Shown here piece by piece: positions 2,400-39,947 of a DNA stretch of 64,000 nucleotides (position 1 is the stretch's first letter; the number at the start of each line of letters is the position of its first letter). Under the pieces are notes generated by a model. It did not search any database. It saw nothing but the letters and a program-made list of their open reading frames with translations, and had not been told where the DNA came from. This DNA is from a virus. The stretch spans positions 1 to 64,000 of IMG/VR virus record IMGVR_UViG_3300037628_000218; one strand, written 5' to 3'. The position numbers were made by a program, and so were the translations under genes.

Positions 2400-2703
2400 T
2401 AGTAGCCACCTCTAAAGCTTTCAGTGCTTTATTAGCTTTTCTTACATCAATGCAGACTATAGCCACCACAGCCCTGGGGTACTTCTTTTTGATATTAAGC
2501 AATGCTTGCTTTACAGTACCCTTAGCATACCATGACAAGTATTCGTCTATATAGCAGCACTCACAGAAAGGAGGTAAAACCTTAACCCGTAGATTCAAGC
2601 CTGCCCCTGTAGACCAGTGTCCAGCCATAACAGCACCCCCTGCTTTACCGTAAAACTTGCAGTTCATTACAGCCTCTAAACTTTTCAACTGTGTCTTACT
2701 CAT
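2392..2703 (-). CDS. unknown protein (103 aa)
   Basis: Basic soluble protein with a central CECC cluster near residue 50. Directly behind an early promoter and the conserved leader, so it is expressed as an early cassette. No family recognised. Confidence 0.6.
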   Translation of the reverse strand: MSKTQLKSLEAVMNCKFYGKAGGAVMAGHWSTGAGLNLRVKVLPPFCECCYIDEYLSWYAKGTVKQALLNIKKKYPRAVVAIVCIDVRKANKALKALEVATNE

Positions 2704-2735
2704 AATCTTGTACTCGCTTTGTTTAAGTTGTAGCT

Positions 2736-2763
2736 ATCTTAACAGTCCTATATCTACTGTCAA
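2736..2763 (-). promoter_or_regulatory. early-type promoter
   Basis: Minus strand: TTGACA (2758-2763), 16 bp, TAAGAT (2736-2741), then the full conserved leader ending GCGAGTACAAGATTATG at the next gene. Confidence 0.85.
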
Positions 2764-2767
2764 CCTC

Positions 2768-3043
2768 TTATTTAGGAATAAACGCATATCGGTAATAATT
2801 ACCTTCAAACTTTAATATTCCTGAGCCAGTAGCCTGCCGCATCTCTATATAGTCCTGACTATAATTATAGGGTTCGTTGTTACACTCTAAACCCCCGTCA
2901 AAAATTATTATACCGCTTCCAACGTCTAATTTAGAGTTTGTAAAGAAAACCGTCCTACCTTTTAAGTTCATCTCTTTAATAACAGGAACCTTAAGAGGGT
3001 TAATATAAATAGATAGCTCTATAATAGCCTTGTTGTAATACAT
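2768..3043 (-). CDS. unknown protein (91 aa)
   Basis: Predicted mainly beta, soluble. No motif recognised. It lies between two early promoters as a single-gene cassette. Confidence 0.55.
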   Translation of the reverse strand: MYYNKAIIELSIYINPLKVPVIKEMNLKGRTVFFTNSKLDVGSGIIIFDGGLECNNEPYNYSQDYIEMRQATGSGILKFEGNYYRYAFIPK

Positions 3044-3076
3044 ATTTAGACCCTCTTAGAAATTTAAGTTGCAACT

Positions 3077-3104
3077 TCTTTAACAGACTGATTAGAGCTG
3101 TCAA
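3077..3104 (-). promoter_or_regulatory. early-type promoter
   Basis: Minus strand: TTGACA (3099-3104), 16 bp, TAAAGA (3077-3082), then a shortened leader (GCAACTTAAA). Drives 2768-3043. Confidence 0.7.
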
Positions 3105-3114
3105 CCACTTATTA

Positions 3115-3750
3115 CTAATTAGTTAAGCCATCCTTAAAAATCTTTATAATTACACTATCTAGTATAATAGATTGGCCTGTAGTACAACGCCCCCAATATT
3201 CACCATCTAGCGTACACTCACCATATGCCTCTAATTTCGCTATTAGCCATCTATCACATGCCCACCATTCGTAAATTTCAGGGTAGGTCTCAAACTCCAT
3301 TGCTTCTAATTTATCGCAAATATCTAAAAATCGGTTTAGTGTCTTAGTCTCAAAGCTATCTAAACGTAACGCCAAAGCCACATGCTCCTTGGTATGGGGG
3401 TTTAGTCCATCATATGCAGCATCTCCTAGCGTGTATATCTTATGATATATAACGTTATAAACGTCCTGCGCCTTATCTCTCAAATACTCGTAGCGTTCTA
3501 GTTCAGAATCCCGTTCGCTTTCTGTTAGATTTTGATAATAAGTACCAATATCAATATGACCATAAGGAACATTATTGGTTATATCCTCATATTCCATAGG
3601 TGCGTCCTCACCTTCAAGGCTTTTTTGTATCACGTATTCAATCAGGGTAGTTTGACAGCATTGGACATAGCCACCAACAAACTTGGAAACTGCGTTCTGT
3701 TGTTCAGACGTTGGAGCTGCGTTATATTCTTCTAAAGTAGTTATAAGCAT
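3115..3750 (-). CDS. unknown acidic helical protein (211 aa)
   Basis: Soluble, acidic, rich in Tyr and Glu, with helices through residues 70-170. No catalytic motif is obvious. The start follows the conserved early leader (AAGCGAGTAAACAAA then ATG). Not recognised. Confidence 0.6.
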   Translation of the reverse strand: MLITTLEEYNAAPTSEQQNAVSKFVGGYVQCCQTTLIEYVIQKSLEGEDAPMEYEDITNNVPYGHIDIGTYYQNLTESERDSELERYEYLRDKAQDVYNVIYHKIYTLGDAAYDGLNPHTKEHVALALRLDSFETKTLNRFLDICDKLEAMEFETYPEIYEWWACDRWLIAKLEAYGECTLDGEYWGRCTTGQSIILDSVIIKIFKDGLTN

Positions 3751-3983: not shown

Positions 3984-4016
3984 CTTAGTATTCCTAGTTT
4001 CGTTTAAGTTCTAGCT

Positions 4017-4045
4017 ACCTTAACAAACCACTTTCAGCCTGTAAA
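4017..4045 (-). promoter_or_regulatory. early-type promoter, variant
   Basis: Minus strand: TTTACA (4040-4045), 17 bp, TAAGGT (4017-4022), then AGCTAGAACTTAAACGAAAC. Drives 3786-3983. Confidence 0.6.
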
Positions 4046-4053
4046 GGTTTATT

Positions 4054-4275
4054 TTAAAATAATTCTAATTGTAGGTGACTATCCCCAAGTATATAAAAAG
4101 CCTCGTCTAGTTCAAAAGCTTCTACCTGACAACAATCAGAAACCTCTATAAAATCATGGTGAGTGGAGGTAAACCCCCAGTATTCTGTAGTGCCGATGCC
4201 CTCGTCGATTACTATAATGCTGCAAGGTTTTTCACAGTGTCCACAAATCATTTCAGTATTGTGCATATTCGTCAA
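4054..4275 (-). CDS. small zinc-ribbon-like protein (73 aa)
   Basis: CGHCEKPC near residue 10 and SDCCQ near residue 48 give a plausible four-cysteine zinc site. The C-terminus is acidic. Function unknown. It lies 6 bp after the gene at 4282-4620, probably in one transcript. Confidence 0.6.
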   Translation of the reverse strand: MTNMHNTEMICGHCEKPCSIIVIDEGIGTTEYWGFTSTHHDFIEVSDCCQVEAFELDEAFYILGDSHLQLELF

Positions 4276-4281
4276 CCTTTA

Positions 4282-4620
4282 TTAGTCAAGATGCCCAGCG
4301 CACATTAAGGAATGGTGTACACTCTCCCCAAATATATGGCAAGCCTTTGTAGCGTCGTTTGTATCAATAACTTCTGCCCCATATACAATACGGTGGCTTT
4401 TACCCCGTTTTACCCAAATAACAGCACAATCCCCTTCATCAAAACTAGCTAGAAGATCAAACCCCCGCCCTGCTATATGATACCCTTCAATAGCTTGCGC
4501 TAGTATCAATGTTGGCGCAGCTCCTACAAAGTCACCACAGAATCTAACAACGTGTTGCGGAGTGCCTGAAATATGCCCTGTGTACTCCAAACCTATTGTA
4601 TAGCGTGCATCATCATTCAT
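4282..4620 (-). CDS. unknown protein (112 aa)
   Basis: Soluble mixed alpha/beta protein; no family recognised. First gene behind the promoter at 4653-4681. Confidence 0.55.
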   Translation of the reverse strand: MNDDARYTIGLEYTGHISGTPQHVVRFCGDFVGAAPTLILAQAIEGYHIAGRGFDLLASFDEGDCAVIWVKRGKSHRIVYGAEVIDTNDATKACHIFGESVHHSLMCAGHLD

Positions 4621-4652
4621 TATACTGTACTCGTTTTGTTTAAGTTGTAGCT

Positions 4653-4681
4653 ATCTTACTAAAGGTGTTTCAGCCTGTAAA
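4653..4681 (-). promoter_or_regulatory. early-type promoter, variant
   Basis: Minus strand: TTTACA (4676-4681), 17 bp, TAAGAT (4653-4658), then AGCTACAACTTAAACAAAAC. Drives 4282-4620 and 4054-4275. Confidence 0.7.
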
Positions 4682-4705
4682 GCTTTATTTTAAAATACTC
4701 TGAAG

Positions 4706-5305
4706 TTATGCACTTACAGGAATCAAAACCCACCCCCCGAACTTACTAGAACCCTGTATACTTGCTAGACGCTCCCGCCTTGTTTGTACCGTTATTTTGG
4801 ATTGACCCATTACTGCCTGATTTAACTGTTGTGTGTCTAATACTATATCATCATTCAAGCGCGTCCTACTTAAAGAATTACCACGTTCATCCTGGGTACT
4901 AAAGGTTTCACATTTAGTTAAATCTACCTTCAACTCTAAAGGTCGCGTTTGGTCAATAATACGTTGTACTTGGGGGTAGTAACCAGACAGATCAACTAGG
5001 TTGCATGTTTTTGGACAATAGAACCCCTCTCCCAGCTCAGTGTTGCACCAGTGGATTCTTTGACCGTCTGAACCATACAAAACTGAACCGTCACTATGCA
5101 AGTAGTTTAAATACTCGCGCATATCCTTTTTACCTACCGCACTAGCTACCCACTGCCAAGCTGTTTTTGGTTTAGCTGGCAAGGAGGGCATAAAGTATTT
5201 GTAAAGTGCTTCTAGCTCACTGTTTGGGTTATCGTCAAGGCTCTTTGTTACATATTCAAAAGCTTGCTTGCGTGTCATTGCTTTAACATTACTATTAAGT
5301 TTCAT
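4706..5305 (-). CDS. unknown protein (199 aa)
   Basis: An N-terminal helical part (1-60) is followed by a Trp-rich region and a C-terminal half with WCNTELGEGFYCPKTC, where the Cys spacing could hold a metal. The C-terminus (GGWVLIPVSA) looks like a beta strand. No known family identified. Own early promoter at 5351-5378. Confidence 0.6.
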   Translation of the reverse strand: MKLNSNVKAMTRKQAFEYVTKSLDDNPNSELEALYKYFMPSLPAKPKTAWQWVASAVGKKDMREYLNYLHSDGSVLYGSDGQRIHWCNTELGEGFYCPKTCNLVDLSGYYPQVQRIIDQTRPLELKVDLTKCETFSTQDERGNSLSRTRLNDDIVLDTQQLNQAVMGQSKITVQTRRERLASIQGSSKFGGWVLIPVSA

Positions 5306-32439: not shown

Positions 32440-33405
32440 TTAAGCTGCTTTTGGTACGTGAACTCGCGCTTTGCCTGTACCATGTGTTTTCTTGATTAGA
32501 TCTGGATGGTTCTTAGCCCAGTCCTGAACATACCAAAGTTGACCACAACCACCGCCTATATCATCTTGGCCTGCTGGATCAAACATACGTACACTATACC
32601 CTGCTTCTAGCATCTTGTCCATAAAATCTTCAACTAACTTACGTTGACGTTGGTTAGCAGCTGATACCCCTTCATCAGCTTCACATATTACTGACAAAGT
32701 ACACTCCCAAATTCCTGCTGGGAAGTGTTCACGGAGGGCGGTAACATCCTCCATAGTGTTATTCTTATCATGCACACAGTAATTGAAGAAAGGTCTACGT
32801 CCTGTGCTACCAGCCCAGTAAGAACCCCACTGAGAAATCTCAGATAGACTTAGCTTTGCTGTCATAGGGATTAACTTATCTCTAGCTTCTTGTACTGCTT
32901 CGTGGATTGAAAACTGTAAGCCTACTTGACTTATCTCTTGGCTTAACTCACACAATTCCAACCAGTTATGATGGGTAGAGTTAGGGGCCATAGTAGAGAT
33001 CAGGAGGTCAGCAGTAGGGTACTCCACATTGAGTCTCCTTATAGCTGTTTTTAGCTCCTTCCAGTTCAGCATAGGCTCACCCATAGACATGAACATTATT
33101 TGTAGTTTATCTATATCCTTAGCGCAGATTGATTCTTCAGATTCTGCAAGTAAGATACAAGCCTTCACCTGACTGAAGATCTCGTCAGCGGTTAAGTTCC
33201 TGATAAAGAAGTTACCAGTACCGCAGAAGCGACAACCAACAGGACACCCAGATTGAGTTGAGCAACAGACTACTGTTCGATCCATGTAAGTAGGGTACTT
33301 GTAAAGCACTGCTTCAGCTACCGCACCATTGCTTCCCTCTTGTGTGAAAACAATCTTCTTAACATTCTGATCTGAACTATGAACTACCTCTTGCTTATCC
33401 CACAT
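32440..33405 (-). CDS. RlmN/Cfr-type radical SAM RNA methyltransferase
   Basis: 321 residues. SGCPVGCRFCGTGNF holds the CxxxCxxC iron-sulfur site. The Cys seven residues before the first of these (VCCSTQSGC) matches RlmN Cys118, and DIGGGCGQL near the end matches methyl-carrying Cys355; both are needed for the RlmN/Cfr mechanism. MFMSMGEPMLNW (GEPL-like) binds SAM. RlmN methylates C2 of A2503 in 23S rRNA and A37 of tRNAs; Cfr methylates C8 of A2503. The N-terminal accessory domain appears shorter than in RlmN. Target here unknown. Confidence 0.85.
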   Translation of the reverse strand: MWDKQEVVHSSDQNVKKIVFTQEGSNGAVAEAVLYKYPTYMDRTVVCCSTQSGCPVGCRFCGTGNFFIRNLTADEIFSQVKACILLAESEESICAKDIDKLQIMFMSMGEPMLNWKELKTAIRRLNVEYPTADLLISTMAPNSTHHNWLELCELSQEISQVGLQFSIHEAVQEARDKLIPMTAKLSLSEISQWGSYWAGSTGRRPFFNYCVHDKNNTMEDVTALREHFPAGIWECTLSVICEADEGVSAANQRQRKLVEDFMDKMLEAGYSVRMFDPAGQDDIGGGCGQLWYVQDWAKNHPDLIKKTHGTGKARVHVPKAA

Positions 33406-33536: not shown

Positions 33537-34142
33537 TTAAATGTCCCAGCCTGTAGCTTCACGTACCATCTCAGTTAGCATCTCGTTTGCTGCTGACCTT
33601 GCTGACCTTGCTGCTGCCTCTGCTGCCTCTGCTGACCTTGCTGCTGACCTTGCTGCTGACCTTGCTGCTGACCATGCTGCTGACCTTGCTGCTGACCTTG
33701 CTGCTGACCCTGCTGACCTTGCTGCTGACCTTGCTGCTGACCATGCTGCTGACCTTGCTGACTCCTCCCCTGTTTTTAGCCAAGTTAAGATTAACTCAAA
33801 ATCTGCATCTGGGCAGTATGGTCTGATCTTTTCGATGTGAATCAAAGCCTGGCTCCTAGCAAATTGGTGTAGTATCTTATCTGCGTCTACCCAATCTATA
33901 TATTTCCTAGTAGAAGCTGCTATTTTATCAGTACCTACCACTATCTCCCCGCCAAGTTCAACCAAGTATAATATTGATCCTGGTGCGTGGTTAACTGCAT
34001 CTAAGAGGTTGATAGATGCGTGTAGGCCATTTTTACATAGTTTGATCTTGCCAAGCACCTTATGGGTTGTACCCTTCCGTATTTTACGACCATCTCCGTG
34101 CCTTAATCGTCTCTCTTCCTTTGCAAAGTAAAAAGCTTGCAT
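33537..34142 (-). CDS. DUF7666-like protein with an AARSA repeat tail (201 aa)
   Basis: Residues 1-125 (FYFAKEERRLRHGDGRKI, CKNGLHAS, LVELGGEIVVGTDK) resemble phage DUF7666-type domains with conserved GLHAS and GxxI. Residues 128-186 are a run of SAARSAAW/ARSA repeats encoded by 12-15-bp tandem units (33590-33765), then a short end. The repeat would form an Arg-studded helix. Function unknown. Confidence 0.65.
   Translation of the reverse strand: MQAFYFAKEERRLRHGDGRKIRKGTTHKVLGKIKLCKNGLHASINLLDAVNHAPGSILYLVELGGEIVVGTDKIAASTRKYIDWVDADKILHQFARSQALIHIEKIRPYCPDADFELILTWLKTGEESARSAAWSAARSAARSAGSAARSAARSAAWSAARSAARSAARSAEAAEAAARSARSAANEMLTEMVREATGWDI
33590..33765. repeat. tandem 9-15-bp repeats coding Ser-Ala-Ala-Arg
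   Basis: Units of TTGCTGCTGACC and TTGCTGACC with occasional ATG and TCTGCC variants. All frames stay open on both strands, which creates several spurious reading frames here. Confidence 0.85.
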
Positions 34143-34208: not shown

Positions 34209-36746
34209 TTAGCTACAAGACTTCTGCCCTGTTTCTAAATCAACGTAGCAAGCTTTAGCTCCTTCGTCAGCTTCATCCTCTTCCTCCTCCTTCACTTCAT
34301 TAAGGATTCCGAACCTCTTACCACCACTATTAAATGTGGTTGCTCCTTTACAACCAAGCTTATAGGCATCAATATAGATACTTTTAAACTCCTCCCAAGG
34401 CATTTCTGGGGAGACATTGATAGTTTTAGAGACAGCAGAATCAACATAGCGGGTGGACAATGCTAGAACATCTAGGTGCTCCTTAGCAGTACACTCATTA
34501 GCAGTCTTACCCTTAACTCCCCAAGTCCCATAGGCGTAGTCAGTTACCCTCTCAACACGTTCTCCTTCATAGGTCTTGATAGTCCTATCATAGTAATGGC
34601 TGAACACTGGCTCAATACCACCACTGATATTATCAGCTGTGAGGCTAATAGTTCCTGTAGGGGCCATGCTAAGCAAGTGGCTATTACGTATTCCCTGTGT
34701 ACGTATCTTATCCTGCAACCACTGGGGGAGGGTTTTAATAAACTTACTCTCACAGTACTTGTCAACATCAAAAGCTGGGAAAGAACCCTTCTCAAGTGCT
34801 AAGTCGCAAGAGGCACTATAGGTCTCATTAGTATAAACCTGTAGGACTCCCTCATACCATTCAAGGAACTCAGGAGACCCGTAGGTGAACCCTAAAGCCT
34901 CCCCTGCATTAGCCACCCCTGTTAAGCCTAAACCCATTCTACGCTTTGTCCTACTCTCCTCTGCTTGGATCTCAAGGGGGAAGGTTGCAATATCATGAAT
35001 GTTATCCATAGCCCTCACAATGTGTGGGATGTCAGCCTTGAACTGCTCCATTCCGAAGAAGAAGTTTCCATCTAAGTCAGTAAAGATATACTTAACTAGG
35101 TTCCAGCTACCTAAGAGACAGGCACCTCCTGGGGGTAAAGGCATCTCCCCGCAGTTATGAACAACCATAGAGTCTGCTATGAAGTTATGAGTTCCCTCTA
35201 CAGTTAAATCATAAACATCGGTAACCTCCCCTTGCTCTATAGATACAATCTCATTTCCAGAGAGTGTCCCACCTGAAGCACTTGCTACTCTAATATTTTC
35301 CAGTTGGAGATCTCTACTACTCTCCGAAGTGAGGCTGTCAGGGTAAGCTAAACTACTACACAACTGCACCACCTTGTCACCTCCTACAAGATTCTTAGCC
35401 TCAACCCACCCTTTATCATGAACCATAACTTCATGGTTACCCGTTACACGGATAGTCTTACCATTTTGTGTAGTAACATTAATGGTTTGCGTGTCTTGCT
35501 TGCTAATCCATGAAGCAGTGGCGTTCCTTACTCCTAAAGACCCATCAGCTAACATAGTGTAAACTTGTGTTGGCTCTTTAATATCCTTGATTTTAACTCT
35601 TCCATTTATAGTTTCTATTAAGGAGTCAGGATGCAAGCATGGATTTGTCGCCCTGATCTCCTCACAGTAGTACAAGTTGTTTAACTCGTTTATACGATCA
35701 ATGAATAGAACTCCCATATATGTTAAAGTAAGTACGCTACTCCTTACCCCAGCTAACCTCGATCAAAGTTAACTGCTGCATGTCTCCATACAGATCAGAC
35801 TATATCAAGAACTCAAAGAGTTCCCACCTATTTCCACCCGCTTGGGTGTACTCCGTTGTCGGATAGTCGTTGCACGTTCAATTAAATACCTGTCGTATAG
35901 TGTACTTAATAGCTTCGCTCAGGATTGCCCTCACCCTAGATGTTAGGGGTTCCCCTGAATTAAAGTGGTTTCGACATAAGATCACTCTTATGAAGCCCAG
36001 TATTATTTAGGTTCTGCCCAATCCCACGTTGAGCGCATTATCTCTTCCCACAAGTTCTTAACGCTAACCTGCTTATACACTCTTCCTTGGAAAGTTAGAT
36101 TAAAAACCTCGTCAATACCTGAATCAGTAACACGAATAACCTTCTCCATGAACTCGTCAGTGATTGCTATGGAAAGGTTGAAAGCTTTCAAGTTGGTATC
36201 ATTTTGTTTAGCGTGAATAAACTCTTCAATATCTGGGTGGTCGATACGCAGTACTCCGATTTGCGCCCCTCGGCGATGCCCAGCACTAGCTATGGTATTA
36301 CAGATAGCATCAAAGATGTTCATAAAGCTAAGAGGCCCACTAGACTTGGAATCTAACGATACAATACGATCATCCCTTGGTCTAAGTGAAGAAAAATCAT
36401 ACCCTATTCCTCCTCCAACCCGCATAGTTTGTGCTGAGTCCTTCGCCCTGTCCATAATGGAATCCATCGAGTCTTCTATGTTTTTACTAACGAAGCAATT
36501 AAAAGGGGTTATCTGGCGTGGTGTTCCAATAGCCGCTTGAGTTCTTCCACCTCCCATAAACGCTTGGATTAGTAAAATGGCTCTAACCTTGTAGTAGTGT
36601 TCCTCGTTATCTTTTAATGCACTTGCGAACCTAGACACCCCCTCCTTGAAGGACTCCCCATTCATTCGGTATTTCATTGCATGTATTTCTTTACTAATGG
36701 CTAATTTTGGGCCATACTCTTCAATCTTATCAATCGTATCAGACAC
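34209..36746 (-). CDS. nrdJ: class II (B12-dependent) ribonucleotide reductase, interrupted by group I intron and mini-intein
   Basis: The coding sequence joins 36009-36746 and 34209-35714 (leftward), giving a 747-residue precursor and 585 residues after intein removal. GHRRGAQIGVLRIDHPDIEEFI is typical of NrdJ. The finger-loop thiyl-radical site is NPCGE and the phosphate-binding region is MAPTGTISL. The C-terminus CYVDLETGQKSC supplies the redox Cys pair. No NrdB partner is in the window, also pointing to class II. A short ORF that seems to start at 35717 is only the end of the intron. Neighbours are dCMP deaminase and a thioredoxin-like protein. Confidence 0.92.
35154..35639 (-). other. 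mini-intein (162 aa) in ribonucleotide reductase
   Basis: Begins CLHPDSLIET (block A, Cys1), VTGNHEVMV (block B, TxxH), DVYDLTVEGTHNFIADS (block F) and VVHN (block G, His-Asn), followed by extein Cys. This gives a complete splicing domain of 162 residues without the endonuclease. The +1 extein residue is the catalytic Cys of NPCGE, so unspliced enzyme must be dead. Confidence 0.93.
35715..36008 (-). other. group I intron (294 nt, no ORF)
   Basis: Splits the reductase codons CCT|GGA without changing frame; exon 1 would otherwise end after one more Lys codon. Exon end GAACCT pairs with intron GGGCTTC to form P1 with the required U-G pair at the splice site. The core CAATCCTGAGC (35917-35927) is the P4 region. 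P7 forms from GACTAT (35863-35868) and ATAGTC (35798-35803). The last intron base is G (35715). No homing endonuclease fits in the element. Confidence 0.93.
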
Positions 36747-36987
36747 TCTTCACTCCTACTTTTTTAAGTTTTCCTATTAAATCATCAGACACACCTACAA
36801 ACCGAGTAACCTCAGTATCGCCGTCATAAACTATTGTGGTGGGTATGCCTCTGATACCTTCTGCTGCTGCCTTATTCGGCTCTCCTTCTATACTTATTGC
36901 TGTATACTCAATCCCAGCACGAGAAAGAGAGCCTTTTACCATTCGAGAGGGGCCACACCAATCAGCCCCGAATACTACTAATCTCAT
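36739..36987 (-). CDS. thioredoxin/glutaredoxin-like protein with WCGPS site
   Basis: 82 residues. FGADWCGPSRMV is the active-site loop, and GIRGIPTTIVYDG contains the cis-Pro. The usual second Cys of WCGPC is Ser, so this is a monothiol version. Likely partner of the reductase, whose start it overlaps by 8 bp. It may work through a mixed disulfide or need glutathione. Confidence 0.75.
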   Translation of the reverse strand: MRLVVFGADWCGPSRMVKGSLSRAGIEYTAISIEGEPNKAAAEGIRGIPTTIVYDGDTEVTRFVGVSDDLIGKLKKVGVKSV

Positions 36988-38204: not shown

Positions 38205-39947
38205 TTACATCTGACTTGCTACAAGATCTCGAATACCTTTCAAGGTCTGCTTATTGTAGAGTTTACCATTTTCAAAGACAACCTGCAATAAACCTGCTTC
38301 TTCCTGTTCACGAGTTTGCATATCGTATTGAACAAGCTCTCCATGTTCCCGTTCTATTCGTAGTAGACCTTTAGCAGACTTCTTCTTAGAGTCTGTTTTA
38401 GGGTCTTTAAAGACGGCTACATCAATCCCTTGCTGAACAACGTTAGTAGCCTTAACAGCACTGCCGTGTGTATCACGGGTAACCATCTGGTAGCTGTAAG
38501 AGCCTACTCCTAAAACTACACTAGGTACAAAGCCTTTATCCATTAGTCGTTTGTAGATCTCATCTTGCCGACCTAGGGTTATAGCATCACCGTAAATAGC
38601 CCCAATGTGGCGATCTAATTGTTTGAAACCTTTATCAGTAGTAGTACCTCCGAAGATCTCCCACAAACATTGGATTAGTCCTTTTTGTTCTGCGGTTAAA
38701 GTTACCTCTTTAAAGGTGCAATGATCAACATCATCCCCATCGTTATCAACATAGTAATACTGCTTGTCATGGCGGTCTAAGGTTGGCTCATATGTAACTT
38801 CATAAATAGTACCCCCAAAGCTATAGGTTTCAGTCTCAATGCCATGTGGGTCTTCTGGTTCTAAATTACAACGGAATTGATCATCCATAGCATCAGCAAC
38901 ACACTCTTTCCAATCATTGAACGTTTCCTCAGAGTCGTCCCAGTTGCCACTTAGGTATTTTACCTGTAAGCCACAAAGAACTTCTACAGGGCATCCAGAA
39001 TCTGGACGTACCACGAAAGTTCCCTCTCGATTCATAATGTCATCCTTTAGCTCAACTAAACCTTTCTCTACAAAACTCCAAAAGTCAAAGCTGTCCGATA
39101 CATGACTCAGAATACCTGTTGGGGCTTTAGTAAACAAGTACTTAACATACTGAAGCTCAGCTTCAAATAGACTGATACCTTGCTTTTCAGACTCAATCAT
39201 AATATAAGAAGTAGCTGTAGAATGCTCTGTGGCTGGTACTGAACAACCTACCAATTCTTTCTCCACATCTGCACCATAGAATTTCTCAGCAAATAAGATA
39301 GCAGATAAATTATCTGTACCTGCCAACCCGCTAGCCAAGTGACCAAAACCAATCATAGCTGCTGCGTGTCGACCTGGTAACCCTCGAAAGCTAAAGTCAT
39401 GTATGTTAAACTTAGCCATACTCACACCACCTGTTAGCTCTAAGGCTTCCTTACAACGCTTGTAATAAGCTAAGGCAGTAGTAGTAGCGGTCTGGATGGG
39501 CCAGTTCTCTGTACTCATTACAGTTTCAATGTAATTGGGTAACCACTGGAAACCACTCACAGTGCTTACAAATGTTACTGGTGCTACTCCGTATGGTACA
39601 ATAGAACCTTCCGCTAGAGCTTTAATGCGAAGAGGTAAGTAGCCTAAATCGTGTAGTGCTTCAAAGTGCGAGGCATCATAGTCAATACTTAAGTAGGAGT
39701 CTACTATACGCTTGAAAGCTTTAACAGCTTGCTCTTTAGGTATGTTAAAGAATGTATCATTCCACTCTTTAATTAACACGTCTTTGATAAAATACTGTAA
39801 CCCTACAAAGACTACTCCCTCATCAGATAGCGTGTTACTTAATCTACCATTACGTGAGGTATAGTTTGAGTAAACCTCTGTAATGTCTTGATGATACCCT
39901 TCTTTATGGAAAAGTTTATATCCATCAGTCTGTAAAAGTGCGCTCAT
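38205..39947 (-). CDS. nadV: NadV-like nicotinamide phosphoribosyltransferase
   Basis: 580 residues. GLPGRHAAAMIGFGH, SVPATEHSTATSY (catalytic His), VVRPDSGCPVEV (phosphate and ribose binding), and GVGSYSYQMVTRDTHG follow the NAMPT order. It is longer than human NAMPT (about 490). The extra 85 residues, acidic and Asp/Tyr-rich, lie after RPDSG at about 330-410. NAMPT joins nicotinamide and PRPP to NMN; phage relatives can instead use ADP-ribose pyrophosphate to make NAD+ directly. Strong own promoter. Confidence 0.9.
   Translation of the reverse strand: MSALLQTDGYKLFHKEGYHQDITEVYSNYTSRNGRLSNTLSDEGVVFVGLQYFIKDVLIKEWNDTFFNIPKEQAVKAFKRIVDSYLSIDYDASHFEALHDLGYLPLRIKALAEGSIVPYGVAPVTFVSTVSGFQWLPNYIETVMSTENWPIQTATTTALAYYKRCKEALELTGGVSMAKFNIHDFSFRGLPGRHAAAMIGFGHLASGLAGTDNLSAILFAEKFYGADVEKELVGCSVPATEHSTATSYIMIESEKQGISLFEAELQYVKYLFTKAPTGILSHVSDSFDFWSFVEKGLVELKDDIMNREGTFVVRPDSGCPVEVLCGLQVKYLSGNWDDSEETFNDWKECVADAMDDQFRCNLEPEDPHGIETETYSFGGTIYEVTYEPTLDRHDKQYYYVDNDGDDVDHCTFKEVTLTAEQKGLIQCLWEIFGGTTTDKGFKQLDRHIGAIYGDAITLGRQDEIYKRLMDKGFVPSVVLGVGSYSYQMVTRDTHGSAVKATNVVQQGIDVAVFKDPKTDSKKKSAKGLLRIEREHGELVQYDMQTREQEEAGLLQVVFENGKLYNKQTLKGIRDLVASQM

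Follow-up and report, generated by a model that had tools for sequence, protein, structure and literature searches.

The window analysed here is a stretch of 64,000 nucleotides (nt), positions 1 to 64,000 of the IMG/VR virus record IMGVR_UViG_3300037628_000218. On its minus strand we found nrdJ, the class II ribonucleotide reductase (RNR) gene of a tailed phage, which is split into two exons by a group I intron and carries a mini-intein in frame within the second exon (Table 1). Rfam, Pfam and TIGR models bore out the original prediction that a 294-nt group I intron and a 162-residue intein share one RNR gene; the distance of 78 bp (26 codons) given there for the sequence between them has to be corrected to 75 nt, or 25 codons. 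A slash within a motif marks an insertion site, P/G for the intron and NP/C for the intein.

Table 1. Features of the nrdJ locus (window coordinates)
Feature	Position	Strand	Description
Thioredoxin/glutaredoxin-like gene	36739..36987	(-)	82 amino acids (aa); PF00085, E 6e-7; upstream of nrdJ, 8-nt overlap with the nrdJ start
nrdJ exon 1	36009..36746	(-)	246 codons, GTG start; 3' end ...GCAGAACCT (WAEP); joins exon 2 in frame
Group I intron	35715..36008	(-)	294 nt; RF00028; site P/G; no open reading frame (ORF); last base U in the 5' exon and G in the intron
Loop closing P6a	35890..35901	(-)	12 nt; stem at intron positions 99-107; the equivalent L192 stem encloses a NUMOD4/HNH endonuclease gene
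nrdJ exon 2, whole	35714-34209	(-)	contains the intein
nrdJ exon 2, first 25 codons	35640..35714	(-)	GVLFID...ATNP, 75 nt; sole coding sequence between intron and intein
Mini-intein	35154..35639	(-)	162 aa; C1 ... T66xxH69 ... H161-N162; site NP/C, directly before the catalytic Cys
Intein stretch where relatives hold the HNH domain (approximate)	35250..35363	(-)	domain largely missing apart from a short remnant (alignment)
nrdJ C-extein	34209..35153	(-)	CGEMPL... to stop; codon 1 (35153-35151) is both catalytic Cys C272 and the intein +1 nucleophile

With the intron removed and the exons joined at CCT/GGA we obtained a single open frame of 747 codons, and with the intein also removed a protein of 585 aa. 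This joined protein matched the NrdJ_Z model with 476.6 bits (curated cut-off 399.95, E 1.2e-142). It has the catalytic and partner Cys set, with Cys residues at positions 84, 272, 283 and, at the C-terminus, 573/584. C272 sits in the motif NPCGE and the second Cys, C283, follows 11 residues downstream, the same distance that separates C408 from C419 in the enzyme of L. leichmannii. Left unspliced, the reading frame ends already with the second codon of the intron (AAA TAA). An internal ATG at 35717, the last intron codon, is unlikely to serve as the start of a 502-aa protein; the nearest AGGAG lies about 25 nt upstream.

The intron matched Rfam family RF00028 along the full model (positions 1-253) with 72.7 bits (gathering score 50, E 1.5e-16) and the match covered the catalytic core from P3 to P9. 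A P1 helix with a U.G pair at the 5' site and a terminal 3' G were present, and the same Rfam scan detected no further introns in the 64-kb window. We assigned P1, P2, P3, P4, P6a, P7, P7.1, P7.2, P8 and P9 by hand, based on the Rfam alignment and on the homologous intron of a related phage, L192 (see below). Hairpins P7.1 and P7.2 are typical of subgroup IA. In a comparison of the two sequences over 49 pairs of these hand-assigned helices, covariation supported the helices: both sides had changed compatibly in 6 pairs and one side in 3, and no pair was kept in one intron but broken in the other. An energy-based fold of the whole intron gave a z-score of -2.5 and recovered not all of the core helices. 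Six-frame translation ruled out a hidden endonuclease frame. A distant blastn search in which the intron was the query hit numerous group I cores of phages, with a query coverage of at most 57% among the matches listed.

For the intein we observed a match to the Pfam family Intein_splicing (PF14890, E 1.2e-21) and matches above the cut-off to the TIGR models of both the N-terminal (TIGR01445) and the C-terminal (TIGR01443) splicing region. The residues C1, T66, H69, H161 and N162 were invariant across the aligned homologues and the +1 residue is a Cys, a set that fits an intein of the standard class 1 type. Its AlphaFold model matched the Ssp DnaB intein (TM 0.7) and the Npu DnaB intein in Foldseek, both pointing to a HINT fold. 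The NrdJ-1 intein, a naturally split HINT-fold intein named after NrdJ, is inserted after and not before the Cys of NPC. Its structure (PDB 8ubs) gave a weak sequence match and a clear fold match to the window intein. Tblastn searches of phages with the window intein and with one of its HNH-bearing relatives returned distant inteins only, none of which was found in a class II RNR among the matches listed; searches of plasmids yielded nothing useful.

If both elements splice as their sequences predict, the nrdJ transcript would fold the group I ribozyme, which would excise itself with a guanosine cofactor and ligate CCT to GGA, and the ribosome would then make a precursor of 747 aa. The intein would leave this precursor by the standard pathway, an acyl shift at C1, transfer to the +1 Cys and cyclisation of Asn162, and the catalytic Cys would become residue 272 of an enzyme of 585 aa. 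Because the intein sits at C272, the precursor should have no continuous active site until the intein has left. Enzyme activity should thus need both removals, as originally proposed, since the catalytic Cys is cut off from the preceding part of the protein by the intein and translation would run into a stop at once within the intron.

We then compared each element with its counterparts in related phages. A pattern built on the 5' splice site retrieved a homologous intron at the identical P/G site (boundary WAEP/GVLFID) from L192 (IMG/VR contig 3300037587_000138), the same-site intron being listed for L192/L272; a second pattern built on the core again retrieved L192 only. The L192 intron, present as a whole in record G001, is 809 nt long and the nrdJ gene that holds it has no intein. 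Its P6a stem (strands UAAACUCUAU and AUAGAGUUUA) encloses a gene whose product matches NUMOD4 (E 2e-10) and HNH_3 (E 2e-8) in Pfam. Gene family, insertion site and ribozyme core are thus shared with the window intron, which differs in having no endonuclease gene and in its company of an intein. The identity between the two phages was 79-82% in the intron core and only 60-64% in the exons, which fits horizontal movement of the intron.

A search with the intein as query detected homologous inteins at the identical NP/C site of phage nrdJ genes (L171, L172, L173/L174/L200, L175/L177/L178/L206, L176 and L266). These inteins are 239-250 aa long, they carry an HNH domain and their host genes have no intron. 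The domain was recognised in the L171 intein as HNH_3 (E 8e-10, Pfam) and the other same-site inteins share an HHIDGD-type block in the alignment. In the window intein the alignment reaches into the beginning of this domain (A98, Y99, L103, T104, E114, G124), the remainder of which is absent. As it keeps an aligned remnant, the window intein is better explained by deletion of the HNH domain than as an ancestral mini-intein, and we conclude that it probably lost the domain in this way. Other insertions were encountered at the same place: the NP/C intein of L006 is of the LAGLIDADG type, and L116 and L127 have insertions of about 1.1 kb there. The same HNH intein family was also observed at the equivalent NPC site of a distant RNR (L179, L180 and L181, around 4001-5200), with a second intein-like start (CISLDTKIKT) further downstream in L180 and L181.

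In order to see how common each state is, we examined a set of 202 distinct relatives whose junctions could be read, counting the window itself; some loci were retrieved with intein or intron queries and the frequencies are biased to that extent. Both insertions were absent in 188 of them (187 exact zero gaps, the remaining one being L046 with its exon 1 frameshift). The P/G intron occurred in 2/202 and an insertion at NP/C in 10/202 (6 HNH inteins, 3 larger insertions and the window), and 3/202 showed an HNH-bearing insertion at or just past the Cys codon. A search of related phages for either insertion alone, suggested with the original prediction, was thus successful for both: the P/G intron stands alone in L192 and the NP/C inteins stand alone in L171-L178 and L266. 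The two were found together in the window only. In the protein tree the window forms a fully supported clade with L001 and L002 in which three different insertion states occur. Of these two closest relatives one is empty and the other, L001 (the closest of all, nrdJ 89% identical), has neither of the window elements and instead holds a 685-nt group I intron (1409-2093, Rfam 66 bits). We read its boundary as NPCG/E, two codons from the intein site; its HNH-like ORF was not recognised by Pfam. L192 falls into a different clade, among empty genes. A further insertion, 638 nt long and with an HNH-like ORF, was seen in L224 (about 1673-2316) and L234 (about 2638-3281). It lies apparently inside the catalytic Cys codon (T/GT) and was not recognised by Rfam at the gathering score.

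As had been claimed, neither the intron nor the intein of the window holds an endonuclease ORF or domain, and no match to NUMOD4 or HNH_3 was found across the 93.8-kb record. On sequence grounds both are endonuclease-less alleles of homing lineages and not active homing elements. The further claim that neither can now spread by itself holds insofar as an own endonuclease is absent but is overstated: exon co-conversion and endonuclease-dead phage introns moved by neighbouring endonucleases have been described (PMC2988022, PMC10643990). Two endonuclease-type proteins, GIY-YIG and LAGLIDADG_2, are encoded in the record, but both belong to another insertion, that of the terminase gene. This terminase large-subunit gene of the same phage lies outside the window (L089 8256-11320, minus strand; about 73249-75311 in record G000) and is split in its Walker A motif (GGAAGS/ALGKT). 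Its insertion of about 1.45 kb matched the group I model below the threshold (33.7 bits, E 2e-6) and holds two endonuclease ORFs, one LAGLIDADG_2 and one GIY-YIG/I-TevI-like; in the relative G002 this gene has no interruption.

Overall we consider it likely, with a probability of roughly 0.85, that two unrelated self-splicing elements of homing lineages, both now without an endonuclease, invaded an intact class II nrdJ of a tailed phage at conserved sites close to each other. We infer that both elements were gained horizontally. The description of the locus as a double scar is supported, because endonuclease-bearing alleles of each element occur elsewhere at the identical sites. Loss of the endonuclease is well supported by the alignment for the intein, whereas for the intron the change may have run either way. 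Several points weigh against this interpretation. With a sole same-site homologue the gain or loss of the intron endonuclease is not polarised and L192 could have gained its gene. Constraint on the ribozyme may partly explain the high identity of the core. Splicing of both elements is predicted, the confidence of the AlphaFold model of the intein is moderate (pLDDT 63.6), and the window stems from a metagenomic virus record.

Another possible route is that both elements arrived together, by one co-conversion from a phage that already carried the two, with an endonuclease at one of the sites as a possible driver. We regard this as unlikely, as there is no second double allele among the 202 distinct relatives and the HNH inteins are found in other clades than the P/G intron. 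The original prediction had suggested that the stacked elements form a control point on the dNTP supply of the phage, such that RNA splicing and then protein splicing would time or gate dNTP synthesis, for example via redox state or temperature. Activity should indeed require both steps, the intein does sit at the catalytic Cys, and conditional inteins are described for other systems (e.g. PMC5790916 and PMC6195587). However, 188/202 relatives manage with neither element, the closest relatives hold a different insertion or none, and we saw no regulatory feature. The chance that at least one of the two intron-bearing genes also has an intein is about 0.1 by an estimate that ignores relatedness, and functional coupling is therefore not needed to account for the coincidence, so that a domesticated control point appears improbable. 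That nrdJ is a decaying pseudogene in which one or both elements fail to splice is very improbable even with splicing of both being a prediction only, since the exteins are in frame and 87-92% identical to intact close relatives, the expected Cys residues are present and both elements retain complete splicing features.

The double invasion was also called unusually stacked. It is the sole double among the 202 relatives, but the combination itself had been described before, which the original prediction did not mention: Lazarevic 1998, as cited in PMC3653736, reported an intron and an intein in one phage RNR gene, bnrdE of the Bacillus phage SPbeta. In the SPbeta record (NC_001884) we found that the bnrdE intein has 385 aa, is located at NL/CSE and thus at the equivalent Cys, and shows LAGLIDADG-like motifs. 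The intron of about 252 nt (Rfam 92.4 bits) is located at MG/QRQG, 420 nt upstream of the intein. Both loci therefore combine, in the large-subunit gene of a phage RNR, a group I intron of ORF-less size with an intein directly before the equivalent Cys. They differ in that bnrdE is annotated as a class I large subunit with the intron elsewhere and 420 nt between the elements, whereas the window gene is class II, both of its elements are minimal and 75 nt apart, and its intein is of the HNH lineage. According to PMC3653736, introns and intein sequence also occur together in nrdE of Brochothrix phage A9 and in nrdD of Lactococcus phage 949. Compared by these descriptions only, both belong to other RNR classes, and the A9 gene contains an intein with an endonuclease as well as three introns. 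The window is thus a rare new case of a kind of intron-intein coincidence in phage RNR genes that has been known since 1998.

With regard to the surroundings of the gene, the thioredoxin/glutaredoxin-like gene and nrdJ likely share a transcript. Directly downstream of nrdJ (33537-34142, minus strand) we noticed a DUF7666 protein with a long low-complexity repeat of the AARSAAW type, through which several overlapping frames stay open. Further along the same strand a protein at 32440-33405 has a weak radical SAM match below the cut-off and a CPVGCRFC motif and looks RlmN-like by eye. A nicotinamide/nicotinate phosphoribosyltransferase-like gene (38205-39947, minus strand; PF04095, E 1.5e-29) lies near the dNTP genes and is possibly a NAD salvage gene. 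A nucleotide search with 24 kb around the nrdJ locus detected no close relative among 50,697 phage genomes.

The occupied sites themselves might matter, as they may disrupt the targets of every type of endonuclease that relatives encode at this spot, so that the double allele would act as an immune haplotype. The targets in question would be those of the HNH intron at P/G, of the HNH and LAGLIDADG inteins at NP/C and of the insertions with HNH at the Cys codon or right behind it. We hold this to be rather unlikely; if it were true, a cleavage-resistant, endonuclease-free allele would be selected and would spread on the endonucleases of other phages in mixed infections. The SPbeta type of coincidence recurs here outside the RNR class of bnrdE; the intein again occupies the equivalent catalytic Cys and the intron has another site. 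Furthermore, one conserved spot in one gene family now offers a matched set of alleles: empty, with an endonuclease-bearing intron, with an endonuclease-bearing intein, and double and endonuclease-free. With this set, direct tests become possible of endonuclease loss, of co-conversion across 75 bp and of homing immunity.
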